This document shows, piece after piece, positions 38,485-56,141 of a DNA stretch of 64,000 bases. Location of the stretch: the NCBI GenBank assembly GCA_028281925.1, contig JANQIX010000057.1, forward strand, positions 62,001 to 126,000, in the 5' to 3' direction. The position numbers were made by a program, and so were the translations under genes. Position 1 is the stretch's first letter. Each line of letters begins with the position of its first letter. Under the pieces are notes generated by a model. The model saw only the letters and a program-made list of their open reading frames with translations. It had not been told where the DNA came from and did not search any database. The DNA is from Alphaproteobacteria bacterium. GTDB lineage: Bacteria > Pseudomonadota > Alphaproteobacteria > DSM-16000 > Inquilinaceae.

Positions 38485-39030
38485 TTGGGCGCAGGCGGCA
38501 CGGCAGGCAGTTTGCCACGCGTTACGCTCGTGCTGGGCGGTGCGCGCTCCGGCAAGAGTGCCCACGCGGAAAGCCTGGTTGAGGCGTCTCGTGGCCGGCC
38601 TGTCTATCTGGCCACCGCTGCGGCCGGCGACGCGGAGATGGCCGAGCGGATCGCCCACCATCGCGCCCGACGCGGCCAGCGCTGGCAGACTGTCGAGGAG
38701 CCGCTGGAGCTGGCAGAGACGCTGGGCCGCGTCGCCGCGCCCGACACGGTTGTGCTGGTCGACTGCCTCACGCTTTGGCTTAGCAACCTCTATGGCGCCG
38801 GCCGTGACGTGCAGGACGAGTCCAACCGGCTGACCCATTCGCTCGACCATGTCTCGGGTCCGGTCGTGCTGGTCAGCAACGAGGTCGGCCTGGGCATCGT
38901 GCCTGACAACGCGCTGGCGCGGCAATTCCGAGACGACGCGGGGCGGCTGCACCAGGCAGTCGCCGAAATCGCCGACCGCGTCGTCTTCGTCGCCGCCGGC
39001 CTGCCGCTGACTCTCAAGTCCGTTTCGTAA
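38485..39030 (+). CDS. cobU: Bifunctional adenosylcobinamide kinase/guanylyltransferase
   Basis: 181 aa. VLGGARSGKSAHAE is the P-loop; VYLATAAAGDAEM, VDCLTLWLSNL and VSNEVGLGIVP match CobU/CobP. It phosphorylates and then GMP-activates adenosylcobinamide for nucleotide loop assembly. TTG 38485 has GGAGG with a 7-base gap; TTG 38512 is a weaker alternative. First gene behind the B12 riboswitch. Confidence 0.92.
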   Translation: MGAGGTAGSLPRVTLVLGGARSGKSAHAESLVEASRGRPVYLATAAAGDAEMAERIAHHRARRGQRWQTVEEPLELAETLGRVAAPDTVVLVDCLTLWLSNLYGAGRDVQDESNRLTHSLDHVSGPVVLVSNEVGLGIVPDNALARQFRDDAGRLHQAVAEIADRVVFVAAGLPLTLKSVS

Positions 39031-39045
39031 CCGGAAAGCCCCTTG

Positions 39046-40083
39046 ATGCGCACCCTTCAGAAGATTCCCGCCACCGTGATCACCGGCTTCCTCGGTGCCG
39101 GCAAGACCACACTGATCCGCCACCTGCTGCAGACGGCCGGCGGCCGGCGGCTGGCGCTGGTGATCAATGAATTCGGCGATATTGGCGTCGACGGCGAGAT
39201 CCTCCGGGGCTGCGGCGAGGAGGCCTGCGCACCGGGCGATATCGTGGAGCTGGCGAATGGCTGCCTTTGCTGCACGGTGGCCGACGACTTCGTGCCGACC
39301 ATCGAAACGCTGTTGGGCCGCGACGAGCCGCCGGAGCATATCGTGATCGAAACGAGCGGCTTGGCCCTGCCCAAGCCGCTGGTCAAGGCCTTCAACTGGC
39401 CCGAGGTGCGCACGCGCGTGACCGTGGACGGCGTGATCACTGTGATCGACGGCGCAGCCACGGCGGCCGGGCTGTTCGCCGCCGACCCCGAGGCCGTTGC
39501 CGCAGAGCGCGCCGCGGATGCCGCGATCGACCACGACGACCCGTTGGAGGAGTTGTTCGTCGACCAGCTGCAATGCGCCGACCTGGTGATCCTGAACAAG
39601 ACCGACCTGCTGGACGATGCGGGGCTGGACCGCGCCATGGCGGAGGTCGCAGACCGTTTGCGGCCAGGTGTGAAGGTTGTGCGCACCTCCCACGGCGGCA
39701 TCGATGCTGCTGTGCTGCTGGGCCTATCCGCAGCGGCCGAAGACGATCTGGACACGAGGCCGTCCGTGCACGATGCGGAGGACGAGCACGACCACGACGA
39801 CTTCACCAGCTTCCATGTTGATCTCGGCCACTTCCCAAGCCCCGGCGACTTGACGCGGCTGCTGACGCCGGTGCTGGCCGCACCGGAGGTGCTGCGCCTG
39901 AAGGGCTTCGCGGCGATCGCCGGCAAGCCCATGCGCTTGGCGGTCCAGGCCGTGGGCCAGCGGCTGGAGACCTATTTCGACCGACCCTGGACGGAGGATG
40001 AGCAGCCGGTGACGCGGCTGGTCGTGATCGGTGGGCGCGACATGGACCAGCCGGCCCTCCGCGCCGCGCTTGCCGCAGCCTAA
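39046..40083 (+). CDS. cobW: CobW-family GTPase/metallochaperone
   Basis: 345 aa. GFLGAGKTTL P-loop, the GCLCCT metal site, ETSGLALP and NKTD for GTP; an HDAEDEHDHDD acidic/His stretch lies between the G domain and C-terminal domain. CobW delivers cobalt to CobNST in aerobic B12 synthesis. ATG 39046 immediately follows a TTG. Followed 15 bp later by cobN. Confidence 0.93.
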   Translation: MRTLQKIPATVITGFLGAGKTTLIRHLLQTAGGRRLALVINEFGDIGVDGEILRGCGEEACAPGDIVELANGCLCCTVADDFVPTIETLLGRDEPPEHIVIETSGLALPKPLVKAFNWPEVRTRVTVDGVITVIDGAATAAGLFAADPEAVAAERAADAAIDHDDPLEELFVDQLQCADLVILNKTDLLDDAGLDRAMAEVADRLRPGVKVVRTSHGGIDAAVLLGLSAAAEDDLDTRPSVHDAEDEHDHDDFTSFHVDLGHFPSPGDLTRLLTPVLAAPEVLRLKGFAAIAGKPMRLAVQAVGQRLETYFDRPWTEDEQPVTRLVVIGGRDMDQPALRAALAAA

Positions 40084-40097
40084 GGAGCCGACAGCCC

Positions 40098-43000
40098 GTG
40101 CACCTTCTGGCGGCACAGCCGGGCGCGATCCTCGACGGATCCGAGGCCGTCGATCTGCAGCAGTCCCCTGCCGACATCGTCATCCTGTCCGCAGCCGATA
40201 CGGAGCTTGCGGCGCTGAGCGCGGCTCAGGCGCACCGCGGGGCCGACGCACCCAGCCTGCGCTTGGCCAATCTGATGCAGCTGGGCCACAACCTGTCGGT
40301 CGACGCCTATGTCGACGCCGTGATCGGCCAGGCGCGGCTGGTGCTGGTGCGCCTCTTGGGCGGTGCGGGCTATTGGCCCTATGGCGTGGAGCAGGTGGCG
40401 GCCGTCTGCCGCGACCGCGGCATCGCGCTGGCCTTCGTGCCGGGCGACGATCGGCCGGACCCGGAACTGGCCGAGCAGTCCACCCTGCCCTTCGATGCCT
40501 GCCATCGCCTGTGGCAGTACTGCGTACATGGCGGGCCGGACAACTATGCCGGCCTCTTGGCCTATGCGGCGCATCTGATCGGGCGGGACACTGACTGGGT
40601 AGAGCCCGTGCCGCTGCCGCGTGCCGGCCTCTACTGGCCGGGGCGCGAGCGTCCGGATGTCGGGATGATCGCCGCCGATTGGGCGCAAGGCGCGCCGACG
40701 GCGGCGATCGTCTTCTACCGCGCCCTGATGCAGGGCGGCGCCCTGGCACCGGTGGATGCGCTGATCAACGGGCTGCGCGTGGAGGGCTTGAACCCGCTGC
40801 CCATCTACGTTGCGAGCCTGAAGGATCCCGCCGCGTCGGCCCTGGTGGACGAGCTTTGCCGCAACCGATCGCCAGCGGTGGTGCTGAATGCCACCGGCTT
40901 TGCCCTTGCCACGCCGGGGGCGAAGGGCGCCTTCGATCCCTTCGCCGCAGCTGATTGCCCGGTCTTGCAGGTGGTCTTCTCCGGCGGCGACGAAGGCACC
41001 TGGGCCGCGGGCACGCGCGGGCTCGCACCCCGCGACCTGGCCATGAACATCGCGCTGCCAGAGGTGGACGGACGGGTGATCACGCGTGCCGTCTCGTTCA
41101 AGGCCGAAGCACGGTTCGATCCGGCAACACAGGCGCGCATTGCCACCTATCGCCCCGTCCCTGACCGCATCGGCTTCGTGGCAGAGCTGGCAGCCGCCTG
41201 GGCGCGGCTGCGCCGGTGCCCGGTGGCCGAGCGCCGCGTCGCCATCGTGCTGGCCAACTATCCCAACCGTGACGGCCGCTTGGGCAATGGCGTCGGGCTC
41301 GACACGCCCGCGAGCGTCGTGACTGTGCTGCGCGCCATGGCCGACGCGGGATACGCGGTCGATGGCATCCCGGAAGACGGCAACGCGTTGATGCGCCGGC
41401 TCGGTTCCGGCCCGACCAATGCGCTGGGCGATCGGGAGGCGCGGACGGGTGGCGCGACCCTGGAGCTGGCTGAGTATCGCGCAGTCTTCGAAGCGCTTCC
41501 GGCAGCGGTTCGCGACGCAGTCGGCGAGCGCTGGGGGGCGCCCGAGGCCGATCCCTTCTTCGCCGAGGGCGCCTTCCGGCTGAGCACGCTTCGGCTCGGC
41601 AACGTCACGATCGTGGTGCAACCGGCGCGCGGCTACAACATCGACCCCAAGGCCAGCTATCACGACCCCGACCTGCCGCCGCCGCACGGCTATCTCGCCG
41701 TTTACGCCTGGCTCCGGTCCGGCTTCGGCGCCCATGCCGTCGTCCATATGGGCAAGCACGGCAATCTGGAATGGCTGCCGGGCAAGGCCGTGGCGCTTTC
41801 ATGCGATTGCTTCCCCGAGGCCGCGCTGGGGCCGCTGCCCAATCTCGACCCGTTCATCGTCAACGATCCCGGCGAGGGCACGCAGGCCAAGCGGCGCACT
41901 GCGGCGGTGATCGTCGACCACCTGACACCGCCGCTGACGCGGGCGGAAAGCTACGGCCCGCTGAAGGATCTCGAGCTTCTGGTCGACGAATACTACGAGG
42001 CCGCCGGCGTCGACCCGCGGCGGCTGAAGGTGCTGGGCGACCAGATCCTGAACCTGGCGCGGTCCATCGGCCTGGCGGCCGACTGCGGCATGGCCGAGGA
42101 CGATACGGCCGACGAGTCTCTGTCGAAGCTCGACAACTACCTTTGCGAGCTAAAGGAGCTGCAGATCCGCGACGGCCTGCACGTCTTCGGGCAAGCGCCC
42201 ACGGATGGCCAGCGCACGGACCTGCTGGTGGCCCTTACCCGCGTACCCCGGGGAACGGGCAAGGATGCCGATGCCTCTCTGATCCGCGCCTTGGCCATGG
42301 ACCTGGAATTGGACGGCTTCGATCCCCTCGACTGCCGCCTTGGCGATCCATGGGCCGGCCCGACGCCACCGACACTGGCCAACGGTGCAGCCTGGCGAAC
42401 GAACGGCGATACGGTGGAGAGGCTGGAACGGTTGGCGCAGTCGCTCGTGGCCGGTGACCGTGGCGCCGAACCTGCCTGGTCGCGGACCCGCACTGTGCTT
42501 GATGCCGTCCATACGGACATCGCGCCCTCGCTGGACGACAGCGGAGCGCAGGAGATTGACGGTCTGCTGAAAGGGCTCGACGGCCGCTTCGTCCCGCCCG
42601 GCGCGTCGGGTGCGCCGACACGCGGTCGGCTGGACGTGCTGCCCACCGGCCGCAACTTCTATTCCGTCGACAACCGCACGGTGCCGACACCGGCTGCCTG
42701 GCAGCTCGGCTGGCAGTCGGCGGCCCTGCTGTTGGACCGGCATAGGCAGGAGGAAGGCGACTGGCCGCGTCGCCTGGCGCTGAGCGCCTGGGGCACGGCC
42801 AATATGCGCACCGGCGGCGACGATATCGCCCAGGCGTTGGCCCTGTTGGGCGTGCGGCCGGTCTGGGACAGCGCGTCGCGGCGCGTCACCGGCTTTGAGG
42901 TGATGCCGCTGTCGGTTCTGGACCGACCGCGCGTCGACGTGACCTTGCGTGTCTCGGGCTTCTTCCGCGATGCCTTTCCGTCCCAGATCGATCTTGTCGA

Positions 43001-43841
43001 CAGCGCCGTGCGCGCCGTCGCCGCGCTGGACGAGCCGGCCGACATGAACCCACTGGCGGACCAGGTGCGCACCGATGCCGAAGCCCTGGTTGCGGACGGT
43101 ATCGACCCGGCAGCGGCCGAGAGGCGGGCCGGCCACCGGGTCTTCGGTTCCAAGCCCGGTGCCTATGGCGCTGGCCTGCAGGCGCTGATCGACGAACGGG
43201 GCTGGGAGACCGCGGACGACCTGGCGCGCGCCTATCTCGCCTGGGGCGGCTATGCCTATGGCGACGGCGCCGACGGGGCGGCGGAACATGGCCTGTTCAC
43301 CCGACGGCTGGGCCAGGTCGAGTTGGTGGTCCACAACCAGGACAACCGCGAGCACGACCTGTTGGACAGCGACGACTATTACCAGTTCGAAGGCGGGCTG
43401 GCCGCCAGCGTCCACCACCTGTCCGGCCGCCGCCCGGTGGTCTACCACAACGACCACAGCCGCCCCGAACGCCCCGTCATCCGCAGCCTGCAGGAGGAGA
43501 TCGCGCGCACCGTGCGCGGTCGCGTGGTCAACCCGAAATGGATCCGCGGCGTCATGCGCCACGGCTACAAGGGCGCGTTCGAGATGGCGGCGACCGTCGA
43601 CTATCTGTTCGCCTTTGCCGCCACCACGCGCGCGGTGGCCGACCACCATTTCGACGCGGTCTACGACGCCTATATCGGCGACGGCACGGTGCGGCAGTTC
43701 CTGTTGGACAACAACCCGGCGGCAGCGGCGGAGATAGCCGACCGCCTGATCGAGGCGCAGGACCGCGGCCTGTGGCAGCCGCGCGCCAACATCGCCTACC
43801 ATGACCTGGCAAATCTTAAGGAAGAAGGACGCGGGAGATGA
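40098..43841 (+). CDS. cobN: Cobaltochelatase subunit CobN
   Basis: 1247 aa, GTG start with AAGGAG. Family blocks: HMGKHGNLEWLPGKAVALS, NIDPKASYHDPDLPPPHGYLA, DALLNDPGEGTQAKRR-type, VYHNDHSRPERP and NPKWIRGVMRHGYKGAFEM near the C-terminus. CobN inserts cobalt into hydrogenobyrinic acid a,c-diamide with the ATPase subunits CobS and CobT, which are not in the window. ATGA overlap links it to cobO. Confidence 0.95.
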   Translation: MHLLAAQPGAILDGSEAVDLQQSPADIVILSAADTELAALSAAQAHRGADAPSLRLANLMQLGHNLSVDAYVDAVIGQARLVLVRLLGGAGYWPYGVEQVAAVCRDRGIALAFVPGDDRPDPELAEQSTLPFDACHRLWQYCVHGGPDNYAGLLAYAAHLIGRDTDWVEPVPLPRAGLYWPGRERPDVGMIAADWAQGAPTAAIVFYRALMQGGALAPVDALINGLRVEGLNPLPIYVASLKDPAASALVDELCRNRSPAVVLNATGFALATPGAKGAFDPFAAADCPVLQVVFSGGDEGTWAAGTRGLAPRDLAMNIALPEVDGRVITRAVSFKAEARFDPATQARIATYRPVPDRIGFVAELAAAWARLRRCPVAERRVAIVLANYPNRDGRLGNGVGLDTPASVVTVLRAMADAGYAVDGIPEDGNALMRRLGSGPTNALGDREARTGGATLELAEYRAVFEALPAAVRDAVGERWGAPEADPFFAEGAFRLSTLRLGNVTIVVQPARGYNIDPKASYHDPDLPPPHGYLAVYAWLRSGFGAHAVVHMGKHGNLEWLPGKAVALSCDCFPEAALGPLPNLDPFIVNDPGEGTQAKRRTAAVIVDHLTPPLTRAESYGPLKDLELLVDEYYEAAGVDPRRLKVLGDQILNLARSIGLAADCGMAEDDTADESLSKLDNYLCELKELQIRDGLHVFGQAPTDGQRTDLLVALTRVPRGTGKDADASLIRALAMDLELDGFDPLDCRLGDPWAGPTPPTLANGAAWRTNGDTVERLERLAQSLVAGDRGAEPAWSRTRTVLDAVHTDIAPSLDDSGAQEIDGLLKGLDGRFVPPGASGAPTRGRLDVLPTGRNFYSVDNRTVPTPAAWQLGWQSAALLLDRHRQEEGDWPRRLALSAWGTANMRTGGDDIAQALALLGVRPVWDSASRRVTGFEVMPLSVLDRPRVDVTLRVSGFFRDAFPSQIDLVDSAVRAVAALDEPADMNPLADQVRTDAEALVADGIDPAAAERRAGHRVFGSKPGAYGAGLQALIDERGWETADDLARAYLAWGGYAYGDGADGAAEHGLFTRRLGQVELVVHNQDNREHDLLDSDDYYQFEGGLAASVHHLSGRRPVVYHNDHSRPERPVIRSLQEEIARTVRGRVVNPKWIRGVMRHGYKGAFEMAATVDYLFAFAATTRAVADHHFDAVYDAYIGDGTVRQFLLDNNPAAAAEIADRLIEAQDRGLWQPRANIAYHDLANLKEEGRGR

Positions 43842-44461
43842 GCGAGCAGCCGATGGACGATGCCGACCTCGACCGGCGCCATGCGGAGAAGATGGCCAAG
43901 AAGAAGGCCGCGCGCGACAAGATCATCGCCACCAAGACGATCGAGAAGGGTTTGCTGATCGTCCACACCGGCAAGGGCAAGGGCAAGTCGACTGCCGCCT
44001 TCGGCATGGTCTGCCGCGCCATCGGCCATGGCATGCGCGTTGGCGTCGTGCAGTTCGTGAAGGGCAAGTGGGAAACGGGCGAGCGCGTGGTGCTGGACCG
44101 CTTCCCCGATCAGGTAAGCCTGCACACCATGGGCGAGGGCTTCACCTGGGAAACGCAGGACCGCCAGCGCGACATCGCCGCCGCCGCTGCGGCATGGGAG
44201 CGCGCAAAGGCGCTGATCGCCGACCCGGCCTACGGCATGGTGCTGCTGGACGAGCTGAACATCGTGCTGCGCTACAGCTACCTGCCGATCGAAGAGGTGC
44301 TGGCGACGCTGGCGGCCCGGCCGCCGATGACGCATGTGATCGTCACCGGCCGCAATGCCAACGAGGCGCTGGTAGAGCAGGCCGACCTGGTCACCGACAT
44401 GACCATGGTCAAGCACCCGTTCCGCAGCGGCGTGAAGGCGCAGGCCGGCATCGAATTCTAG
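43838..44461 (+). CDS. cobO: Corrinoid adenosyltransferase CobO
   Basis: 207 aa. HTGKGKGKSTAAFG P-loop for ATP, LLDELNI and NANEALVEQADLVTDM are typical of CobO/BtuR. It transfers adenosyl to cob(I)yrinic acid a,c-diamide. Start overlaps the cobN stop (ATGA). Confidence 0.95.
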   Translation: MSEQPMDDADLDRRHAEKMAKKKAARDKIIATKTIEKGLLIVHTGKGKGKSTAAFGMVCRAIGHGMRVGVVQFVKGKWETGERVVLDRFPDQVSLHTMGEGFTWETQDRQRDIAAAAAAWERAKALIADPAYGMVLLDELNIVLRYSYLPIEEVLATLAARPPMTHVIVTGRNANEALVEQADLVTDMTMVKHPFRSGVKAQAGIEF

Positions 44462-44476
44462 GGCCGGACAACGCCG

Positions 44477-45946
44477 ATGCCGCGCACACCGGCGGTAATG
44501 GTGCAGGGCACCGGCTCCGACGTCGGCAAGTCGCTGCTGGTCGCCGGAATGGCCCGGGCCTTTGCCCGGCGCGGGCTGACGGTGCGGCCGTTCAAGCCGC
44601 AGAACATGTCGAACAACGCCGCAGTCACGGCCGATGGCGGCGAAATCGGGCGGGCCCAGGCGCTGCAGGCCCGCGCCGCCGGGGTCGCCCCGGTGATCGA
44701 CATGAACCCGGTGCTGCTGAAGCCGGAGACCGAGGTGGGAGCGCAGGTCGTCGTGCAAGGCCGCCGTGTGGCCACGCTGCAGGCCCGCGACTACGGCGCC
44801 TTCAAGCCCAGCCTGATGGGCGCGGTGCTGGAAAGCTACGAACGTCTCTCGGCCCAGGCCGACCTGGTGCTGATCGAAGGCGCTGGCAGCCCGGCGGAGG
44901 TCAACCTGCGCCGCGGCGACATCGCCAATATGGGCTTCGCCGAGGCCGCAGATGTTCCCGTGATCCTAGCCGCCGATATCGACCGTGGCGGCGTGATCGC
45001 CAGCCTGGTCGGAACCCACGCGGTGGTTACGGAGGCGGAGCGGGCCCGCATCCGCGGGTATATCGTCAACAAGTTCCGCGGCGACGTGCGGCTGTTCGAC
45101 GGCGGTCTGACGGTGATCGGCGAGCATACCGGCTGGCACAGCCTCGGCGTCGTTCCGTACTTCCCTGAGGCGCGCAAACTTCCGGCCGAAGACGCCGTGG
45201 CCTTGCAGCACCTTCAGGACGAGGGTCCCCGGCCGATCCGCATTGCCGTTCCCGTGTTCTCCCGTATCGCTAATTTCGACGACCTCGACCCGCTCAGGGC
45301 GGAGGAAGACGTTGCCGTCACGATGGTGCCGGCCGGACAGGCGCTGCCGGGTGACACCGATCTCGTGATCCTGCCCGGATCCAAATCCACTATCGGCGAT
45401 CTGGGGTACTTTCGCGCCCAAGGCTGGGATATCGATCTGGCCGCGCATGTGCGGCGCGGCGGCCATGTGCTGGGCTTGTGCGGCGGCTATCAGATGATGG
45501 GCCGCCGCCTGGACGATCCCGACGGCATCGAGGGCCCGCGTGGCGCCGTCGACGGCCTCGGCCTGCTGGATCTGGAGACCGTGCTGACACCGGACAAGAC
45601 GCTGGTGGAGGTCACGGGCCGCCATCTGCCGACCGAAACAGCCATCCGCGGCTATGAAATGCATATCGGCCGCACCACGGGGCCAGCTCTGGAGAGCCCT
45701 CTCTTGGATTTGGGGGGCCGGGCGGACGGGGCCCGATCCACCGACGGGCGCATTGCCGGCTGCTATGTGCACGGGCTTTTCGCGTCGGACGCGTTCCGCC
45801 ACGCGTTCCTGTCGACGCTCAAGTCCCGCACCGACGGCGGCTTGGCCTTCGATGCCGGCGTCGACGCCACATTGGACGCTCTGGCCGACCACCTGCAAAC
45901 CCATATCGACCTGGACCGGGTGCTGGCGATCGCCGGCTACAGATAG
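44477..45946 (+). CDS. cobQ: Cobyric acid synthase CobQ
   Basis: 489 aa. N-terminal ATP domain [11 protein letters not shown] and [10 protein letters not shown]-terminal glutaminase domain with [10 protein letters not shown] (nucleophile Cys) and a His toward the end. It amidates adenosylcobyrinic a,c-diamide at four carboxylates. The last gene of the riboswitch operon; its stop overlaps the convergent cbiB by 10 bp. Confidence 0.95.
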
Positions 45947-46932
45947 GCCGCCGCCGCGGCGAGGCCCGCGGCGAGGGCAATCAGCAGCATTGCGATCGCC
46001 ATCAGCCGGGCTGCGTCGCCGATGTCTTGGGCCGTTGCGTCCGACCGTCCACCAGCATTCATCCAGTGGTCGTCGACGACCTGCCCGCCATACCGGCGCG
46101 GACCGGCCAAGGCAAGGCCGAGGCCGCCGGCCATCGCCGCCTCGGGCCAGCCGGCATTGGGCGAGCGATGGCGGCGGGCGTCGCGGGCCATGGCCCGCAA
46201 GGCGCCGACCGCCGCCCCACGCGGGTGCAGGGCCGCCGCCACCACGATCAGCAGTCCCGACAGACGCGCCGGGATCAGGTTCACCAGATCGTCGAAGCGG
46301 GCAGAGGCCCAGCCGAATTGCAGATGCCGCGGCGTGCGGTGCCCGATCATGCTGTCGGCCGTGTTGACGGCCTTGTAGGCGATGATCCCGGGCAGGCCGG
46401 CAACCACGTACCAGAAGGCGGGCGCCACAACGCCGTCGGAGAAGTTCTCCGCGCAGCTCTCGATCGCTGCGCGCGCCACGGCCGGTGCATCCAGGCTCTC
46501 CGGGTCGCGGCCGACAATGTGGGCGACGGCGGCACGGCCGCCCGCAAGCCCGCCCGATCGCAACCCTTCGCCGACCGCTGAGACGTGGTCGAACAGGCTG
46601 CGCCCGGCGAGCAGAACAGCCACGATCAATGCCTCAGCGATCCCCCCCCACGAATGCAAGCCGGTGACGATAGAGAGCGACCAACCGATACCTGAACTCA
46701 CAAGAAGAAGGCAGACCAGGCAGAGAATGCCCGCCCAGCGGCGCTGTTTGTCGCTCCACCCATCGCGGTTCAGCCGTCGATCGAGCACCGAGACCAGCCG
46801 ACCGAACAGGACGATCGGGTGCGTCACGCGGGACCATAGCCAAGCGGGCTCGCCGACCAACGCATCCAGAAGAAGAGCGGCCGCAAGAATGCCGAACGAG
46901 CCGGGCCAGGGGAGATCGGTCCAAGGATCCAT
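45937..46932 (-). CDS. cbiB: Adenosylcobinamide-phosphate synthase CbiB
   Basis: 331 aa integral membrane protein with several hydrophobic segments. [23 protein letters not shown] near the start, [20 protein letters not shown] and [28 protein letters not shown] are the CbiB/CobD signature. It joins cobyric acid to aminopropanol phosphate made by the decarboxylase at 32333-33334. Opposite orientation to the operon. Confidence 0.93.
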
Positions 46933-47203
46933 GTCGGGAACGTAAGCCTGAGGATGCGCGAGCGCACCATCCGTCCGCGTCAGTCACCCCGGGTGGCCTC
47001 AGGCGGTCAAGTCCCGTTGCGACGTCCCGGGGTCGCGCGCCCGATAGCGGGCGGTAGGGCGACCGTGTCTAATGGCCTAAGAAGCCGAAGCGTTCCGATC
47101 ACCGTGGCCGTCCGATCCAGAGTGGCGCCCGGTGATGCACAAGGAACGCATCGGGAAGAATGGGTCCAACGCGAAAACCGCGTGGCGGGAGGAGAACTCG
47201 ACC

Positions 47204-48715
47204 ATGGCCAAGACGCGCCCCAACATCCTGCTGATCATGGCCGATCAGCTCGCCCCGCAGTTTCTGCCGGCCTATGGTCACCCCGTGGTGAAGACGCCGC
47301 ATCTGGACGGGTTGTGCGAGGACGCGGTGATCTTCGACGCGGCCTATTGCAACGCGCCGCTCTGTGCCCCGGCCCGCTATACGCTGATGAGCGGGCGGCA
47401 GCCGTCACACATTGGCGCCTGGGACAACGCGGCGGAGTTCGCAGCCGAGATACCCACCTTTGCCCACCATCTGGCGGCCGCGGGCTATCGCACCTGCCTC
47501 AGCGGCAAGATGCATTTCTGCGGCCCCGATCAGCTCCACGGGTTCGAAGACCGCCTGACGACGGACGTCTATCCCGCTGACTTCTCCTGGACGCCGGACT
47601 GGGACGATCCGCAGCGGCGGCTCGACTATTACCACACCATGGATGTCGTCCGCGAGGCGGGGCCGTGCCTGCGCTCGGCCTATCTGGACTTCGATGACGA
47701 GGTGACGTTCGCCGCGACACGCTACTTGTTCGATCTCGCCCGCGGCGGTGACGAGCGGCCGTTCTGCCTGGTTGCCGCCTACATCCATCCCCACGACCCC
47801 TATATCAACCGCCCGGAATACTGGGATCTCTATAACGACGACGCGATCGACCCGCCGGCGATCCCAGCGGCCGCAGCGCCGCGCGATGTGCATTCCGAAC
47901 GGCTGATCCAGGCGATGGGCATGGACGATCCGTGGCCGAGCGAGGCGACCGTGCGCCGGGCCCGCCGCGCCTACTACGCCTCGACCAGCTATATCGACGC
48001 CCAGGTTGGGGCCTTGATGAGGGCGCTGAACGAGGCGGGCTTCGCCGACGATACCGTCGTGCTGTTCACCTCAGACCACGGCGACATGCTGGGTGAGCGC
48101 GGGCTCTGGTTCAAGATGAGCTGGTTCGAGCACAGTGCCCGGGTACCCCTGATCGTCCGCGCCCCGGGGACCTTCGCCCCGCGCCGCGTCGCCTCTGCCG
48201 TTTCCCACGTCGATCTGATGGCCACGCTGGCGGAGATCGCGAACGACGGCGCCCCGTTCGGCGCGACCCCGACCGAAGGGCGGTCTCTCTTGCCGCATCT
48301 TTCCGGGCGCGATGGGCATGACGAGGTGATCGGCGAGTATTTCGGGGAAGGCACGGTAGAGCCGCTGTTCATGATCCGCCGCGGCACCCGCAAATTCGTC
48401 ACGGCGGCGGAAGACCCGCCGCAGCTCTATGACCTCGCCGCCGATCCGCACGAGATGGCCAATCTTGCGGAGAACCCGAACCATGCGGCCGAAGTCGAGG
48501 CGTTCCGCGCCGAGGCCGCGTCCAGATGGGACGCCTCCGCCTTGAAAGAGCGCGTGCTGGAGAGCCAGCGCCGCCGACACTTCATCGCCCCGATCCAGCG
48601 GGCCCAGGGCCGGTCATGGGACTACACGCCCCCGGCCGATGGCACGCGGACCTACATCCGCAACCACCTCAGCATCGCGGAGATCGAACGCCGTTCGCGA
48701 TTTCCGACAGTGTGA
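47204..48715 (+). CDS. betC: Choline-sulfatase
   Basis: 503 aa. NILLIMADQLAPQFLPAYGH opening; sulfatase signature CAPARY with Cys54 to be converted to formylglycine, the same residue number as in Sinorhizobium meliloti BetC. C-terminal ESQRRRHFIAPIQRAQGRSWDY...YIRNHL block is choline-sulfatase specific. GGGAGGAG lies upstream of ATG 47204. It releases choline from choline-O-sulfate. No betA/betB/betI neighbours in the window. Confidence 0.92.
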   Translation: MAKTRPNILLIMADQLAPQFLPAYGHPVVKTPHLDGLCEDAVIFDAAYCNAPLCAPARYTLMSGRQPSHIGAWDNAAEFAAEIPTFAHHLAAAGYRTCLSGKMHFCGPDQLHGFEDRLTTDVYPADFSWTPDWDDPQRRLDYYHTMDVVREAGPCLRSAYLDFDDEVTFAATRYLFDLARGGDERPFCLVAAYIHPHDPYINRPEYWDLYNDDAIDPPAIPAAAAPRDVHSERLIQAMGMDDPWPSEATVRRARRAYYASTSYIDAQVGALMRALNEAGFADDTVVLFTSDHGDMLGERGLWFKMSWFEHSARVPLIVRAPGTFAPRRVASAVSHVDLMATLAEIANDGAPFGATPTEGRSLLPHLSGRDGHDEVIGEYFGEGTVEPLFMIRRGTRKFVTAAEDPPQLYDLAADPHEMANLAENPNHAAEVEAFRAEAASRWDASALKERVLESQRRRHFIAPIQRAQGRSWDYTPPADGTRTYIRNHLSIAEIERRSRFPTV

Positions 48716-48753
48716 CGATTGTTTCGACGATTTTTGCGTCACTGGGAGAGATG

Positions 48754-48768
48754 CTGCCTGCTTGGCAG
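48754..48768 (+). terminator. Weak hairpin downstream of betC
   Basis: CTGCC-TGCTT-GGCAG stem-loop followed by ATTTATTGT. The 5-bp stem and modest U content make it at best a weak terminator for betC. Confidence 0.3.
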
Positions 48769-48827
48769 ATTTATTGTAGAGTCAGTTAGAGCCGAATTTC
48801 GCACAAGCAGGCTATTGGCCCTCACTG

Positions 48828-50024
48828 ATGTCGACCAGAAAGAGAGGAAACAGGCTTGAGAGATGGGAAATTGCCCTGATCAAGGCCATGCTGGTGCGAG
48901 GTGATTACAATGACCAAGATATTCTCGCATATTTCACAAGACCCACCCGCACTATAAACCATGCTCGGATTCTGGAGATCCGTACGGGTGCGAAGTACAA
49001 GACCGTGAGAGTTGCAACCGACATCGAGTTGGATGAATTCCTTTTTGCCTGGCCTAGCATCGATCCCGAAACCGGCTTGAACCAGCGCGGCGACGAGTTA
49101 CTCATTAAGGCACGTGAAGCAATGATTGCGGCCGTGCATATATTCAACAGTGCGGGCCTCACCTTCCGCACTGAATTATTTATCGTTACATGCATCATAG
49201 CGTGGACTTACCTTCTACACGCTTGTTTCCGCCGTGAAGGCATAGATTATCGCTACAAGAAGGGAGATGGAACTGTACTGAAGACCAGGCAGGGCGCGGA
49301 CTGCTATTGGGAGTTGGGCAAGTGCTTGCGCCATAGTCGATGCCCAACCTCAAAAGGCGCGGCAAAGAACCTGGAATTCTTGCTCGAGTTACGCCACGAA
49401 ATCGAACACAGGTCGACTAATCGCGTTGACGATGCGGTAAGCGCCAAGCTCCAGGCATGCTGCCTCAATTTCAACGACGCAATCAAATCGCTATTTGGCA
49501 CTCAATATGGATTGGAACGGAGATTGCCGATTGCGCTTCAGTTCGTCACCTTCGACGAAGATCAGCGTTCAGCGCTGAAAAGGAACAGTACGCTGCCTGC
49601 ACATATTGAAGCGTTTATCGATGCATTCGAACATGGACTGACCGAAGAGGAATATGCAGATCCGGCGTATCGGTACCGTGTGGCTTTCGTACCGATATCG
49701 GCAAACAGGGCGTCCAGCGCCGATGTCTCCATTGAGTTTATCAAAGGCGATACTGAGGAAGGACGCAAGATCAACCGAGTCCTCCTAAAAGAGGTGGACA
49801 GGCGTCGTTACACCGCAACGCAGGTTTGGAAATTGATGCAGGCGGAGGGATATCCGCACTTCAATCAGCAGGCCCACACGACGCTCTGGCAGGAGCTTGA
49901 TGCGAAGAATGTCGCTCGTGGATACGGGCGGGAAGGTGACTACAAGGGCACATGGGTATGGTACGACAGGTGGGTGGAGCGTGTCCGTGCCCATTGTCAG
50001 GAGCAATCCGAGCGATATCGGTAG
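48828..50024 (+). CDS. DUF3644/HEPN-like protein in an AT-rich islet
   Basis: 398 aa. N-terminal helix-turn-helix-like segment (NDQDILAYFTRPTRTINHARILEI). Around residues 90-290 it resembles DUF3644. Arg189-HEIE-His194 (in LRHEIEHRS) fits the Rx4-6H catalytic motif of HEPN ribonucleases, which act in abortive infection and toxin-antitoxin systems. Base composition is clearly more AT-rich than the flanking genes, and no strong Shine-Dalgarno precedes the ATG; signs of transfer. I am confident of the ORF and fairly confident of the HEPN-like motif; a defence role is inference. Confidence 0.7.
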   Translation: MSTRKRGNRLERWEIALIKAMLVRGDYNDQDILAYFTRPTRTINHARILEIRTGAKYKTVRVATDIELDEFLFAWPSIDPETGLNQRGDELLIKAREAMIAAVHIFNSAGLTFRTELFIVTCIIAWTYLLHACFRREGIDYRYKKGDGTVLKTRQGADCYWELGKCLRHSRCPTSKGAAKNLEFLLELRHEIEHRSTNRVDDAVSAKLQACCLNFNDAIKSLFGTQYGLERRLPIALQFVTFDEDQRSALKRNSTLPAHIEAFIDAFEHGLTEEEYADPAYRYRVAFVPISANRASSADVSIEFIKGDTEEGRKINRVLLKEVDRRRYTATQVWKLMQAEGYPHFNQQAHTTLWQELDAKNVARGYGREGDYKGTWVWYDRWVERVRAHCQEQSERYR

Positions 50025-50105
50025 AGGAGGCCATCGCTAGTCATTAAGGACACAAGAGAAACTTAGTCAACTGACGTAGTATCATCCTGATATTCTCTAT
50101 ATCTA

Positions 50106-50609
50106 TTAATCCTTTGAATTGCGCGATGGCAGCTCCATCATATTTCTTAGCTCATTCTCTGAATATGCAAGATCAAACTGGTGCACACCACGCCAGATTT
50201 GACCATGATTTTCCCATTTAACATCCAGATGAAAATCACCCAGCTCATCACCAAGACAGATTGGTATTGAAAAATGACTCTTGGGCCGAACACTATATTT
50301 CCTTATGTTTGTTTCGTAGATTTTCACTTGTTGTTCAATATCTAGATGACTGTCATTTGGAAATATAACTTCCACTCTATTTTTATTCCCAATTACAGCA
50401 GTCACTTGAATGCGTCCATGCGTAGGGTTGTTTATATTGAGAGATAGCATATTTATTTGCCTACCTATATCTTCATCAAGCCAATTTTCACCTTGATATC
50501 TATCAAGATAGAACCAAGGTCGCTGATCGCGAGCCCGCCATAGGATTGCGAGTATGACCCCGACCGTCGCGGCGAGCGCGGCGATCGCTGCCAAGATTGA
50601 ATTGACCAT
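50106..50609 (-). CDS. Membrane-anchored protein of unknown function in an AT-rich islet
   Basis: 167 aa. Residues ~3-23 form one hydrophobic segment (SILAAIAALAATVGVILAI), then a soluble domain beginning RARDQRPWFYLDRY. The first ~25-30 codons are GC-rich like the chromosome, the rest is strikingly AT-rich. Convergent with the DUF3644 gene, 81 bp apart. No family recognised; topology implies the C-terminal domain faces one side of the inner membrane. Confidence 0.65.
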   Translation of the reverse strand: MVNSILAAIAALAATVGVILAILWRARDQRPWFYLDRYQGENWLDEDIGRQINMLSLNINNPTHGRIQVTAVIGNKNRVEVIFPNDSHLDIEQQVKIYETNIRKYSVRPKSHFSIPICLGDELGDFHLDVKWENHGQIWRGVHQFDLAYSENELRNMMELPSRNSKD

Positions 50610-50782
50610 CTGTTTCTCCTCAGAACCAAACGGAGGCCACCCGAGGTCGATCGAAACTCATCCCCACACCGTCGCCCGAGACGAGTGGCCGAAAGCAGTA
50701 GCCGTATGGAAAGCTAGGGATCAGATCACTTTTTTTCGATGCGCCTATCTTCCGGGACGAAGTCGATGTCCAACACCCAGGA

Positions 50783-52249
50783 CTAACGGCCGTCAGTCAG
50801 CGACAGTACCCAGGCCTCGAGTGCCGCGGTGTCCGCGATCTCTCCGTCCCACGCAAGATCCGGCGCGATGGCGTCCTGCCGACCCGGAGCGGCGCTCAGA
50901 AACGCCTTTGTCGACAACGACATCCACGCCCAGCCGCTGGGCAGCGCCACCTGTCGTATCTCGCCGTAGAGGCCGTGGGCGCGGGTGGGCCAGCCGACCA
51001 GCGTGACGTCATCGATGGCGCGCAAGAGGTCGACGAACAGGAGGGCCGAGCTGAAGACGCGGCCGTCGATGATCACGAAGACCTGGCCCGCGTGCGGAGA
51101 CGGTGGCGGATCGGTGCGCACGGGCTCAGACGGCTCCCCGAGATGGGCGAGCGGCTCGCCGGCTGCGATCGCGGTGTCCAGGGCCGCCAGGATCGTGTCG
51201 AGGTAGCGCGCAAGGCCCGGATCGTCCGGACGGCTCACGCCCAGTGCATCGCGAAAGCTCTGGAAGTGGTCGCGGTTCGCGGGTGACGCGCGCATGGCGT
51301 CGGGGATGCCGGAATAGAGCTGCCCCTCACCCCAGGCCACCAGCGGCTCGCCATAGAGGGTGACGGCAAAGCCGCGCACTAGGAACGAGTTGCCGCCGCC
51401 GTTGCCGCGCAGGTCGAAGACGATGTCCGCGTCGGCGGGCGCCGCGTCGACCATCTGCCGCAACTCCTCCATCGCCTGCACGGCCGCGCCCGTCGGGGCC
51501 AAGGTGGGCAGCGAGATCCACAGCAAATCGTCGGAAATCCAGCGGCCGCCGATCTGAGGGGGATTGCCGAATGCGGCGGCCGCCAGCAGTGGCTGCAGCC
51601 AGCCCATGCGGGCCGGCGTCCAGGCCAGATCGAACGGCTGCTCCCCGCCGTCGACCAGGAACCGGCAGTGCTCCGGCCGCACCATATCGAGCTGCCCCTG
51701 ATCGAGGAACATCAGCGGCGCGGCCGACACACGATCCGCCGCCAATGCCCTGTTGCCTTGAAAGCGCAGGGCGTTGCGATGCAACAGCCAGTCGGCGTCG
51801 TGGTCGCCGCAGCCGACCAGTTCCGCGCCTAAGGGCGGGACGCCGACGCCAAGCATCGCCGACACGATGATCGCATCGCGGCGATAGGATGCTACGAATC
51901 CTGGGCCAAGCGACTCCGGTCGGGACACCGCCGCCCATTGCGGATGCTGCTGGTTTCCCCAAACGGCGAGATGGTGGTCTGGCAAGCCGTTGGCATACTC
52001 GATCAAGAGATAGAGGTATTGGGTGAGATCGGCCGCGCGATCGGCGCTGGCCATCGCTGCGTCAAACCCTTCCTCCAGCAGCGCGCGAAACTCCGGATCG
52101 AGTTCCGGACCAGGATGATCCGCCTCCACCAGATCATGGATCGCCTGCAGGTCTTGGCGCGCAAGAGACGGCCAGTCGGGTTCCTGCGCCCAGGTCTCGA
52201 ACGCGCCGAGAGCCAGCAGCAAGACCGCGATGCCCCAAGCTGGTCTCAT
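50783..52249 (-). CDS. Secreted S41-peptidase-like protein
   Basis: 488 aa. Signal peptide MRPAWGIAVLLLALGAFETWA. The C-terminal half looks like the S41 (C-terminal processing protease/tricorn core) fold: DADIVFDLRGNGGGNS, VFVIIDGRVFSSALLF with the nucleophile-region Ser, and TLVGWPTRAHGLYGE. ATG 52249 starts the signal peptide; the frame opens further upstream without signal. No PDZ domain is evident, so specificity is uncertain. Confidence 0.72.
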   Translation of the reverse strand: MRPAWGIAVLLLALGAFETWAQEPDWPSLARQDLQAIHDLVEADHPGPELDPEFRALLEEGFDAAMASADRAADLTQYLYLLIEYANGLPDHHLAVWGNQQHPQWAAVSRPESLGPGFVASYRRDAIIVSAMLGVGVPPLGAELVGCGDHDADWLLHRNALRFQGNRALAADRVSAAPLMFLDQGQLDMVRPEHCRFLVDGGEQPFDLAWTPARMGWLQPLLAAAAFGNPPQIGGRWISDDLLWISLPTLAPTGAAVQAMEELRQMVDAAPADADIVFDLRGNGGGNSFLVRGFAVTLYGEPLVAWGEGQLYSGIPDAMRASPANRDHFQSFRDALGVSRPDDPGLARYLDTILAALDTAIAAGEPLAHLGEPSEPVRTDPPPSPHAGQVFVIIDGRVFSSALLFVDLLRAIDDVTLVGWPTRAHGLYGEIRQVALPSGWAWMSLSTKAFLSAAPGRQDAIAPDLAWDGEIADTAALEAWVLSLTDGR

Positions 52250-52553
52250 CTCGCCAATCCCTTGGTCGGTCGCAGCACCGCGCAGCCGGACCCGATGGGC
52301 TCGACCATACTCGCATCGGCGATCTCGGAACACTGGGCTTTCCAACACGCCGTTTCCTGGGCCAGACTGCGCCCCGCGCACACCCGGGACACGGACCTGG
52401 TCGGTGACGGGAATCCTCCAAGGGTCCATTGCGGCTCGAGGAGGAGCGGGCGGATCTTGACGAGGCCCGCGTTGCAGCCGATGACTGGCCCGCCGGTACT
52501 TCTGCCGGTGGGATCCCAGGCGTGCGCCGCAGGTGGATCAAGGGAGGTCCCGT
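52250..52553. other. 304-bp divergent intergenic region upstream of cbiX
   Basis: It separates the S41-like gene and the cbiX operon. I looked for a second cobalamin riboswitch (B12 box, CGCAACTGT block, closing stem) and did not find one. AGGGAGG at 52541-52547 is the cbiX ribosome site. No clear promoter hexamers. Confidence 0.5.
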
Positions 52554-53603
52554 ATGGGCGACCGTTTTGGGGTGATGATCTGCGGCCATGGCAGCCGCGA
52601 CCCGCAGGCCGTAAAGGAATTCGCCGTTCTGTCGGAGAAGCTGACCGGCCGCTTCGGCGACTGGCCGGTGGACTACGGCTATCTGGAGTTTGCGCGGCCC
52701 GTGATCCGTGACGGGCTGGACCGGCTGCGCGAACGGCAGGTCAACCGCGTGCTGGCCGTGCCGGGCATGCTGTTCGCCGCCGGCCATGCCAAGAACGACA
52801 TCCCGTCGGTTCTCAACACCTATCAGGCCGGCCATGAAGGCCTGAGCATTCAGTACGGGCGCGAACTGGGGATCGACACGCGCATGGTACGGGCCGCCGG
52901 TGAGCGCGTCAGCGAGGCGCTGGCGGCGGCCGGCGACCATGTGCCGCGGCACGACACGGTGCTGGTTGTGGTCGGCCGCGGCGCGTCGGACCCCGACGCC
53001 AATTCCAACGTCGCCAAGGTGATGCGCCTGTTGTGGGAAGGCATGGGCTTCGGCTGGGGCGAGACCGCCTATTCCGGTGTCACCTTCCCGCTGGTGGAGC
53101 CGGCGCTCGAGCACGTGGCGCGCCTGGGCTTCCGCCGCGTCGTGGTGTTCCCCTATTTCCTGTTCACCGGGATCCTGGTGCAGCGGATCTATGACCACAC
53201 CGACCTGGTGGCCGCGCGGCATCCCGAAATTGAGTTCGTCAAAGCGCCCTATCTGAATGACCACCCGCTGGTGCTGGAAACCTTCGTCAGCCGCGTGAAC
53301 GAGATCCTGGAAGGTACCGGCAACATGAACTGCCAGATGTGCAAGTACCGGGAGCAGGTGCTGGGTTTCGAGGCCGAGATCGGGCTGGCGCAGGAAAGCC
53401 ACCACCATCACGTGGAAGGCATCGGCACCGACGCAGATCACCATCACCACGATCACGGCGATCATCATCACCACGGCCATGGTCATGGTCATGACCATCA
53501 CCATCATGGCGACGGACATGCTCAAGGGCACCACCATCCCTACCCGCATGCCGACCATCCGCTGGGACCCAAGAGCCTGCGCCAGTCGGAGGCTGCCGAT
53601 TGA
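52554..53603 (+). CDS. cbiX: Sirohydrochlorin cobaltochelatase-type protein CbiX (long form)
   Basis: 349 aa. CbiX domains: GVMICGHGSRDPQAVKEF (first active-site His) and a second copy with VVVGRGASDPDANSN. C-terminal MNCQMC (Cys260, Cys263) matches the MXCXXC iron-sulfur motif described for Bacillus megaterium CbiX-L. Residues ~282-338 are extraordinarily His-rich (about 26 His), suggesting cobalt storage or delivery. First gene of the second B12 operon; 4-bp overlap to cobH. Confidence 0.88.
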   Translation: MGDRFGVMICGHGSRDPQAVKEFAVLSEKLTGRFGDWPVDYGYLEFARPVIRDGLDRLRERQVNRVLAVPGMLFAAGHAKNDIPSVLNTYQAGHEGLSIQYGRELGIDTRMVRAAGERVSEALAAAGDHVPRHDTVLVVVGRGASDPDANSNVAKVMRLLWEGMGFGWGETAYSGVTFPLVEPALEHVARLGFRRVVVFPYFLFTGILVQRIYDHTDLVAARHPEIEFVKAPYLNDHPLVLETFVSRVNEILEGTGNMNCQMCKYREQVLGFEAEIGLAQESHHHHVEGIGTDADHHHHDHGDHHHHGHGHGHDHHHHGDGHAQGHHHPYPHADHPLGPKSLRQSEAAD

Positions 53604-54238
53604 GCGCGTTGCCCGCTTATCTGAGCGACCCGCACGCGATCTCGCGAAGCTCCACCGACATCATCCGGCGGGAGGCCGACCTCTCGGCATTGCCGCCAGA
53701 TCTGGCGCCGGTGGCGGTTCGCCTGATCCACACCTGCGGCATGACGGACATCACCGGCGATCTGGCCTTTGATCCGGACCTTGCGGCGGCCGGGTGTGGA
53801 GCGCTGGCAGCCGGCGCGCCCATTCTGGTCGACAGCCGCATGGTCGCCGCGGGCATCACGCGGTCGTTCCTTCCGGCCGGCAACGATGTCGTCTGCGGGC
53901 TGGACGATGCGCGGACGGCCGATATGGCCGTGCGAGACGGCACGACGCGATCGGCGGCAGCACTGGCGCTGCTGCAAGACAGGTTCGCCGGGGCTGTCAT
54001 CGCCATCGGTAACGCGCCGACGGCGCTGTTCCGCCTCTTGGAGCTTCTTGATGCGGGGGCGCCGCGACCGGCGGCGATCCTGGCCTTTCCCGTCGGCTTC
54101 GTCGGCGCGGCGGAGTCCAAGGCGGCGCTGGCGGAAGATGCCCGCGGGGTGCCCTTCCTGACGCTCTTGGGCCGTCGCGGCGGCAGCGCCATGGCGGCGG
54201 CGGCCGTCAATGGGCTTGCCGCCGGAGAGCCGGCATGA
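53600..54238 (+). CDS. cobH: Precorrin-8X methylmutase CobH
   Basis: 212 aa. IHTCGM contains the catalytic His44; ILVDSRMVAAGI and PVGFVGAAESK are the family's substrate blocks. It moves the C11 methyl to C12, giving hydrogenobyrinate. TTG start overlaps the cbiX stop; ATGA overlap to cobL. Confidence 0.93.
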   Translation: MSALPAYLSDPHAISRSSTDIIRREADLSALPPDLAPVAVRLIHTCGMTDITGDLAFDPDLAAAGCGALAAGAPILVDSRMVAAGITRSFLPAGNDVVCGLDDARTADMAVRDGTTRSAAALALLQDRFAGAVIAIGNAPTALFRLLELLDAGAPRPAAILAFPVGFVGAAESKAALAEDARGVPFLTLLGRRGGSAMAAAAVNGLAAGEPA

Positions 54239-55440
54239 CCACCTGGCTTTCCGTGATCGGCATCGGCGAAGATGGGCTTGAGGGCCTCTCGCCCGTTGCG
54301 CGCACGCTTCTCGCCAAGGCAGAGTTGCTGATCGGCGGCGAGCGCCACTTGGCGATGATCCCGGAGGACGGGCGGGAACGGCTTTGCTGGCCGAAGCCGC
54401 TGAAGACCGCGATCCCGGAGATCCTGCAGCGCAGCGGCCGCCAGGTGGCGGTTCTCGCCACCGGCGACCCCATGTGCTACGGCGTCGGCGCCCGGTTGGC
54501 GCGCGTCATTCCGGCGGAAGAGATGACGATCGTTCCGGCGCTGTCGGCCTTCAATCTCGCCTGCGCGCGCATGGCATGGTCGCTGCCGGACATCGAGACC
54601 GTGACGATCCATGGCCGGCCGAGAGAGATGATCGTCGCCAGCTTCTATCCCGGTGCCCGCATTCTGGCGCTGACGACCGGCGGCAGCACGCCGGCCGCCG
54701 TCGCGCGCATGCTGTGCGAGCACGGCTACGGGGACAGCCGCCTGACGGTGCTGGAGCGGATGGGCAGCCCGACGGAGCGTCGGCTGGACGGCGTCGCCCG
54801 AACCTGGCCGCACGAGCGCGCGGCCGATTTGAACACGCTCGCCGTCGAGTGCATCGCCGATCCCGGAACGGTCGCGCGCGCACGCCTGGCCGGATTGCCG
54901 GACGATGTGTTCGCCCATGACGGACAGCTGACCAAGCGGGAGGTGCGGGCCGCCACCCTGGCCCTGCTGGCGCCCCTGCCCGCCCAATGCCTCTGGGATG
55001 TGGGTGCCGGATGCGGCTCCGTCGGCATTGAATGGCTGCGCAGCCACCCCAACAACCGTGCCGTCGCCATTGAGCGGTCGGCTGAGCGCTGTGGCCTGGT
55101 TGCACGCAATGCCGCGAGCCTGGGCGCGCCGCTGCTGCAGGTGGTCGAGGGCGAGGCGCCGGACGCGCTCGCCGACCTCGACCCGCCAGACGCCGTTTTC
55201 ATCGGAGGTGGCATCGCGCGCGAGGGATTGGTGGAGGCCTGCTGGCAGGCCCTGCCGTCCGGCGGGCGATTGGCGGCGAACGTCGTGACCGTGGAGGGGG
55301 AGAGCGCCGTGTTCCAATGGCACGCCCGCCTGGGTGGCCAGCTTGGCCGGATCGCCGTTTCGCGTGGGGAAGCGGTCGGCCCGTTCACCGGATGGCGGCC
55401 GTTGATGCCGGTCACTCAATGGTCGGTGGTCAAGCCATGA
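54235..55440 (+). CDS. cobL: Precorrin-6Y C5,15-methyltransferase (decarboxylating) CobL
   Basis: 401 aa, CbiE plus CbiT fused. N-terminal tetrapyrrole methylase: VIGIGEDGLEGL, ATGDPMCYGVG and VPALSAFNLACAR. C-terminal class I methyltransferase: LWDVGAGCGSVGIEWLR, AIERSAERC, DAVFIGGG. It adds methyls at C5 and C15 and decarboxylates C12. ATGA overlap at both ends, so tight translational coupling. Confidence 0.93.
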   Translation: MTTWLSVIGIGEDGLEGLSPVARTLLAKAELLIGGERHLAMIPEDGRERLCWPKPLKTAIPEILQRSGRQVAVLATGDPMCYGVGARLARVIPAEEMTIVPALSAFNLACARMAWSLPDIETVTIHGRPREMIVASFYPGARILALTTGGSTPAAVARMLCEHGYGDSRLTVLERMGSPTERRLDGVARTWPHERAADLNTLAVECIADPGTVARARLAGLPDDVFAHDGQLTKREVRAATLALLAPLPAQCLWDVGAGCGSVGIEWLRSHPNNRAVAIERSAERCGLVARNAASLGAPLLQVVEGEAPDALADLDPPDAVFIGGGIAREGLVEACWQALPSGGRLAANVVTVEGESAVFQWHARLGGQLGRIAVSRGEAVGPFTGWRPLMPVTQWSVVKP

Positions 55441-56141
55441 CCGGCATTGCCTATGGCGTCGGCGTCGGCCCCGGAGATCCAGAGCTGATCACGCTGAAGG
55501 GCCTGCGGCTCATTCAGTGCGCACCGGTGATCGCCTATCCGGCACCGGAGACCGGCGACAGCCTGGCCCGTGCCATCGTTGCCCCCCACCTGCCGGGCGG
55601 CCAGTGCGAGATCGCCATCCGCATGCCCATGGTGGCCGAACGCTTCCCGGCGCAGGAGATCTATGATCGCGCCGCCAAGGACATCACCGCCGAACTCGAT
55701 GCCGGCCGCGACGTCGCCATCCTGTGCGAAGGCGATCCGTTCTTCTACGGGTCGTTCATGTACCTGTTCGGCCGGCTGGCCGAGGGCCACCGGGTGGAGG
55801 TGGTGCCCGGCGTTTCGTCGCTGAACGCCTGTGCTGCCGCCCTGGGTGCGCCGCTGGTAGCCCGCAACGACGTGTTGACCGTGGTCCCGGCCCCGCTCGC
55901 AGCCGATGAGTTGCGGCGACGGCTGGATGAGGCGGATGCCGTGGCCATCGTCAAGCCGGGACGACACTTCGCCAAGGTCCGCGACGTGCTTGAGGCAGCG
56001 GGGCTCTCAATGCACGCCCGCTATATCGAGCGCGCTACCATGGATCATCAGCGCATCCTGCCGCTGGCCGCGGTCGATCCGGCCGAGGTGCCCTATTTCT
56101 CCATGATCCTGGTGCACAAGCGCGGTGAGGCCTGGCGGTGA
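55437..56141 (+). CDS. cobI: Precorrin-2 C20-methyltransferase CobI
   Basis: 234 aa tetrapyrrole methylase. YGVGVGPGDPELITLKG opening, LCEGDPFFYGSFMYL and VPGVSSLNACAA. ATG 55437 overlaps the cobL stop; the longer frame upstream is antisense noise. Converts precorrin-2 to precorrin-3A. Confidence 0.93.
   Translation: MTGIAYGVGVGPGDPELITLKGLRLIQCAPVIAYPAPETGDSLARAIVAPHLPGGQCEIAIRMPMVAERFPAQEIYDRAAKDITAELDAGRDVAILCEGDPFFYGSFMYLFGRLAEGHRVEVVPGVSSLNACAAALGAPLVARNDVLTVVPAPLAADELRRRLDEADAVAIVKPGRHFAKVRDVLEAAGLSMHARYIERATMDHQRILPLAAVDPAEVPYFSMILVHKRGEAWR

Follow-up and report, generated by a model that had tools for sequence, protein, structure and literature searches.

A stand-alone DUF3644 (PDC-S19) protein with a predicted HEPN ribonuclease fold as candidate defence cargo of an AT-rich islet in an alphaproteobacterial genome

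In the 64,000-nucleotide stretch of alphaproteobacterial DNA described here (the window), an AT-rich islet carries what is probably a single functional cargo gene, encoding a predicted stand-alone HEPN RNase of the DUF3644 (PDC-S19) family that would most likely act as an abortive-infection effector triggered via DNA-binding-like domains. DUF3644/PDC-S19 and the HEPN kind of protein are both already known, the window protein is a fresh member, and for the genome itself it would be an ordinary acquired defence-type gene. What PDC-S19, a candidate-defence family, gains from this locus is a clear anatomy, named putative catalytic residues, and a natural insertion with clean boundaries whose empty site is seen in a congener, so that a single gene and two point mutants would suffice to test the defence claim. 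The features of the locus are as follows.

48727..50798, no strand: AT-rich islet of 2,072 bp, probably acquired, between betC and the S41-like gene; edges from blastn of window positions 44000-56000 against the congener (L052)
48828..50024, + strand: 398-aa protein of DUF3644 / PDC-S19, predicted to be an HTH-HEPN-wHTH ribonuclease (PF12358, 197.6 bits; PDC-S19, 386.4 bits; AF2 model)
48861..48986, + strand: N-terminal helix-turn-helix-like helices, residues 12-53 (AF2 helices 12-24, 29-36, and 45-53; small-terminase HTH match weak, Z 4.6)
49095..49496, + strand: predicted HEPN four-helix bundle, residues 90-223 (AF2 helices 90-107, 114-136, 176-193, and 201-223)
49392..49409, + strand: Rx4H motif R189-HEIE-H194 closing helix 3, the putative RNase active site (alignments A1 and A2)
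49800..50003, + strand: C-terminal winged-helix-like domain, approximately residues 325-392 (AF2 H-H-E-E-H, mostly high pLDDT; match to CarH residues 4-65, Z 6.1)
50106..50609, - strand: orphan one-pass membrane protein, 167 aa, with a beta-rich remainder (no homologue at E <= 0.001; low-confidence model)

The islet and its empty site

The islet has a GC content of 0.494 against 0.656 over the window, and in a scan by 2-kb windows those lying on the islet gave the lowest values, which confirms the drop in base composition that an earlier, sequence-only reading had placed between betC and the S41-like gene. The two ORFs inside it, at 48828-50024 (+; 398 aa) and 50106-50609 (-; 167 aa), lie where that reading had put them, and its limits of 48716-50780 are only a few bases off the edges, 48727 and 50798, given by the empty site of a congener. 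Metabolic genes (cobD, betC, and a CbiX-like gene) surround the islet, rather than a defence island. At 48754-48768, just within the left islet edge and 3' of betC, lies a small hairpin that resembles a terminator and has a T-rich tail; it did not rise above chance in the scan.

In the congener (G001, contig C142), which was the sole same-genus genome sampled and thus provides a single comparison, betC adjoins the S41-like gene (95 and 91% protein identity, respectively), with a 62-bp spacer where the window carries 2,072 bp. By blastn, the flanks are 90.2% identical up to position 48726 and 90.0% identical from 50799, and this similarity covers 4.7 kb on the left side of the islet and 5.2 kb on its right side; neither islet gene is present anywhere in the G001 genome. 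Recent acquisition, which had previously been deduced from composition only, thereby gains the empty site as a further line of evidence, and the suggested comparison of the betC/S41 junction found the islet absent from this relative. We consider the islet to be a horizontally acquired insertion, and its gain in the window's lineage is far more likely than a loss in G001 because its composition is atypical and its closest relatives occur in other taxa. Neither islet gene is an integrase, and searches returned neither terminal inverted repeats nor a duplicated target site that would be convincing at the islet ends, no second copy of the islet in the genome, and no tRNA gene in the 64-kb window.

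Domain layout and predicted fold

A full-domain Pfam match (PF12358; 197.6 bits versus a gathering cut-off of 27.6, covering 1-182 of the 183 Pfam positions) establishes the DUF3644 identity that had been proposed for the larger ORF product, and PADLOC matched the protein to PDC-S19 (386.4 bits, E 3e-116, covering 13-323 of the 325 model positions). Compared to DUF3644/PDC-S19, the window protein adds an N-terminal HTH-like region of ~88 residues that lies outside the PADLOC model. The helix-turn-helix-like segment suggested earlier for this end is upheld in part: three helices appear in the AF2 model, but Pfam finds no domain there, and neither the N- nor the C-terminal part, when searched alone, yielded a significant Pfam domain. 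The N-terminal region is common to most alphaproteobacterial homologues and is missing in three loci (L040, L058, and L059) whose DUF3644 proteins span ~326-331 aa; thus, the HTH-like N-terminus is an optional add-on.

The predicted motif R189-HEIE-H194 is present at 49392-49409, and its Arg and His are invariant both in alignment A1 (24/24; 23 homologues from genomes and plasmids) and in A2 (19/19; a second set including viral contigs), with homologues down to 20% identity. Residue 190, directly after the Arg, is always H, N, or D in the aligned homologues, and active HEPN domains have such a polar residue (H/N/D) after the R of Rx4-6H (PMC3710099). Structure prediction, which had been proposed as a check on the DUF3644 protein, gave a HEPN four-helix bundle: in the AlphaFold model built from A2 (mean pLDDT 74.8), helix 3 ends at residue 193 and is closed by the Rx4H motif; the model is a monomer, with low confidence at 234-253 and 284-325. 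When matches to solved structures were re-aligned (VIA), each of ranks 1-17 was a HEPN-superfamily fold, with HepT, Csm6, and sacsin among them, at Z 9.4 to 7.0 (best match 2hsb: Z 9.4, rmsd 2.6, 119 aligned), scores that can be modest for helical bundles; unrelated bundles start only below these 17 HEPN rows. DrrA was counted among the HEPN folds because it has been placed in the GlnE-like HEPN group (PMC3710099). The HEPN likeness is seen only per domain (VIA), as Foldseek searches of the whole DUF3644 protein against the PDB and a viral library gave no significant match, and a PDB sequence search with both islet proteins likewise returned nothing significant.

Relative to the closest homologues, the nucleotide identity (71-72%) is lower than the protein identity (78-79%), with a dN of 0.135 and a saturated dS, indicating that the DUF3644 protein has been under purifying selection. 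Overall, the sequence and model data support membership of the protein in the HEPN superfamily, with a predicted four-helix bundle that bears an invariant Rx4H motif.

Relatives, proposed function, and rival explanations

The DUF3644 gene is patchily distributed in the class, scoring over the cut-off in 14 of the 385 genomes sampled, and its GC content is below that of the measured flanks in nearly all loci. The nearest relatives (78-79% protein identity) occur in Chelatococcus, Flavimaribacter, and a Rhodospirillales MAG, and the first two adjoin ParB-, ArdC-like, and VirD4-like genes (read from translations) in conjugative-element-like loci. Further homologues are carried on Phaeobacter, Falsirhodobacter, Sinorhizobium, and Rhizobium plasmids, on prophage contigs (in one case adjoining lysis genes), and in chromosomal single-gene islets. 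Defence genes lie beside several of these relatives, namely an MTase and a Bse634I-type REase (type II R-M) together with Vsr in L011, an AriA/OLD/GajA-like (OLD/PARIS-like) ATPase-TOPRIM in L008 and L073, SoFic in L071, and TcmP (PDC-M30A) in L039; in L009, L010, and L072, the gene stands alone among housekeeping genes, which, like the metabolic surroundings of the islet, counts against the defence reading. The neighbouring defence genes are suggestive of a defence context for DUF3644 and, together with the PADLOC match to PDC-S19, agree with the candidate-defence status that had been put forward. PDC families are single-gene candidates derived from 'guilt by embedding' inside known immune systems and are mostly unvalidated (PMC12988326); no experiment tying DUF3644 to phage defence was found in the literature, and PDC-S19 is not named in any paper found.

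Some loci show further arrangements. In the Rhizobium leguminosarum plasmid pRL1 (L039, 7884-11735), the DUF3644 gene is split by an IS66-family insertion and adjoins the TcmP (PDC-M30A) and DUF5131 genes. Three viral contigs (L060, L063, and L064) hold a divergent DUF3644 gene in one slot, near a large primase-like gene and a cytosine-methyltransferase-like gene, and this slot is possibly a prophage cargo hotspot. Additionally, both in the window (39000-50024) and in L009 (1216-8408), a cobW-cobN-cobO cluster lies near the gene, with cobO as its nearer end, at a distance of 4.4 kb and 1.0 kb, respectively. L009 is the Rhodospirillales MAG locus whose DUF3644 protein is 78% identical, and the DNA adjoining its gene could not be aligned with that of the window; the shared location could reflect either chance or a shared insertion neighbourhood.

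In the mechanism that we consider most likely, the DUF3644 protein would be a latent, metal-independent HEPN-type RNase that stays inactive until infection. Two subunits would pair, such that both Rx4H motifs build one RNA-cutting site, and the DNA-binding-like domains on either side, the likely sensors, would detect or attach to either invading DNA or a structure of phage replication. Upon activation, host and phage RNA would be cut and the infection halted at the cell's expense. A more general version, which we advance tentatively and with considerable doubt, is that DUF3644 proteins are self-contained sensor-effectors: their two DNA-binding-like ends would directly recognise foreign DNA as it enters or replicates and would activate the HEPN RNase without an antitoxin, second messenger, or partner protein.

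The rival explanation that deserves most attention, although we regard it as unlikely, is that the gene belongs to the maintenance or addiction machinery of plasmids and conjugative elements (as the toxin half of a TA pair), was stranded in the chromosome, and has no defence role. Relatives are indeed common on plasmids, near ParB, ArdC-like, and VirD4-like genes, and HEPN-MNT toxins have the same fold; however, the homologues show neither a conserved partner gene nor conserved flanking DNA, an Rfam antitoxin RNA was not found, and the gene is solitary in most loci, including chromosomal islets, which leaves room only for an unlinked or internal antitoxin. HEPN folds also occur in non-catalytic regulators, and it is improbable, in our estimation, that the window protein is a DNA-binding regulator of this kind, using the fold without catalysis as in MtlR-like proteins: its HTH-like and winged-helix-like ends and the presence of MtlR among the structural matches (Z 5.3-5.8) would suit this role, but an Arg and His kept invariant down to 20% identity would be needless in a non-catalytic bundle, and there is no conserved neighbour to regulate. 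We give very little credence to the view that the gene is a neutral passenger left by an earlier insertion and now without function; an integrase or flanking repeats were not found, and the insertion was judged from a single congener comparison, but the 398-codon frame is intact, all family-invariant residues are kept, and purifying selection is apparent versus the homologues.

The islet had also been read as a two-gene candidate defence module. In such a module, comparable with HEPN-TM, the HEPN effector would act with a membrane partner (a sensor, anchor, or antitoxin). Both genes do lie inside one 2-kb insertion, and the membrane ORF is preceded by a plausible ribosome-binding site (GAGGAG, then the ATG) and encodes one hydrophobic helix followed by basic residues. 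However, it is convergent to the DUF3644 gene rather than in an operon with it, PADLOC gave no match for its product, searches of 96 relatives, 385 class genomes, a plasmid collection, and viral contigs yielded no homologue at E <= 0.001 (one marginal match, E 0.004, was seen in the class set), and it lies beside DUF3644 in none of the relatives inspected. As described earlier, the ORF is GC-rich at its start and AT-rich thereafter, falling from GC 0.616 and GC3 0.70 in the first 33 codons to GC 0.368 and GC3 0.29 in the rest, and this abrupt change suggests a chimeric passenger. A Pfam match to WxLIP_HBD (E 3e-4) was below the cut-off, and the single-sequence structure model is of low confidence. 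With a convergent gene that is composite in composition and absent beside DUF3644 in the relatives inspected, the two-gene module is unsupported and seems to us improbable; a role of the membrane gene as the HEPN partner is unlikely, and it is best treated as an unrelated islet passenger. A stand-alone DUF3644 effector remains our preferred reading of the islet.

Comparison with known systems

DUF3644 has been assigned to the HEPN superfamily, and the EC042_2821 family, which overlaps DUF3644, is listed with fused winged helices and an occurrence in R-M operons (PMC3710099). Like this family, the window protein joins a predicted HEPN domain bearing Rx4-6H to a winged-helix-like domain, and its relative in L011 lies beside R-M genes; unlike it, in that EC042_2821-type proteins can have an N-terminal wHTH and a C-terminal REase, the window protein has a C-terminus that models as a winged helix, with no REase domain seen. 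The protein also resembles HEPN-MNT (HepT/MntA) in its predicted HEPN fold (Z 8.6-9.2 to HepT chains), but no nucleotidyltransferase partner is present in the islet and none was noted beside the inspected homologues. Set against the gene arrangement of two-gene HEPN-TM defence, a HEPN gene with a conserved membrane-protein partner, the membrane ORF of the islet is convergent and has neither a PADLOC match nor a homologue at E <= 0.001. For an RNA antitoxin of the AbiF/AbiD type (a structured ncRNA upstream of the gene and conserved with it), no Rfam match was found in 48300-51000 up to E 1, and the upstream DNA of homologues with 58-79% identity showed no similarity to that of the window; such an RNA may yet be unlinked or fast-evolving.

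Tha, a single-gene HEPN RNase with an RNSIMH motif from a Staphylococcus aureus prophage, is a proven anti-phage abortive system (PMC11087260). Like Tha, the DUF3644 protein is a predicted one-protein HEPN RNase with an R-x4-H motif and with family members encoded in prophages; no sequence family link was seen, and abortive defence is proven for Tha and predicted for DUF3644. Tha lacks a recognisable N-terminal domain and has an overlapping inhibitor gene, whereas the window protein has two nucleic-acid-binding-like domains and no linked inhibitor. If the proposed reading is true, DUF3644 would extend the known abortive systems by a HEPN one that consists of a single gene and carries DNA-binding-like sensor domains.
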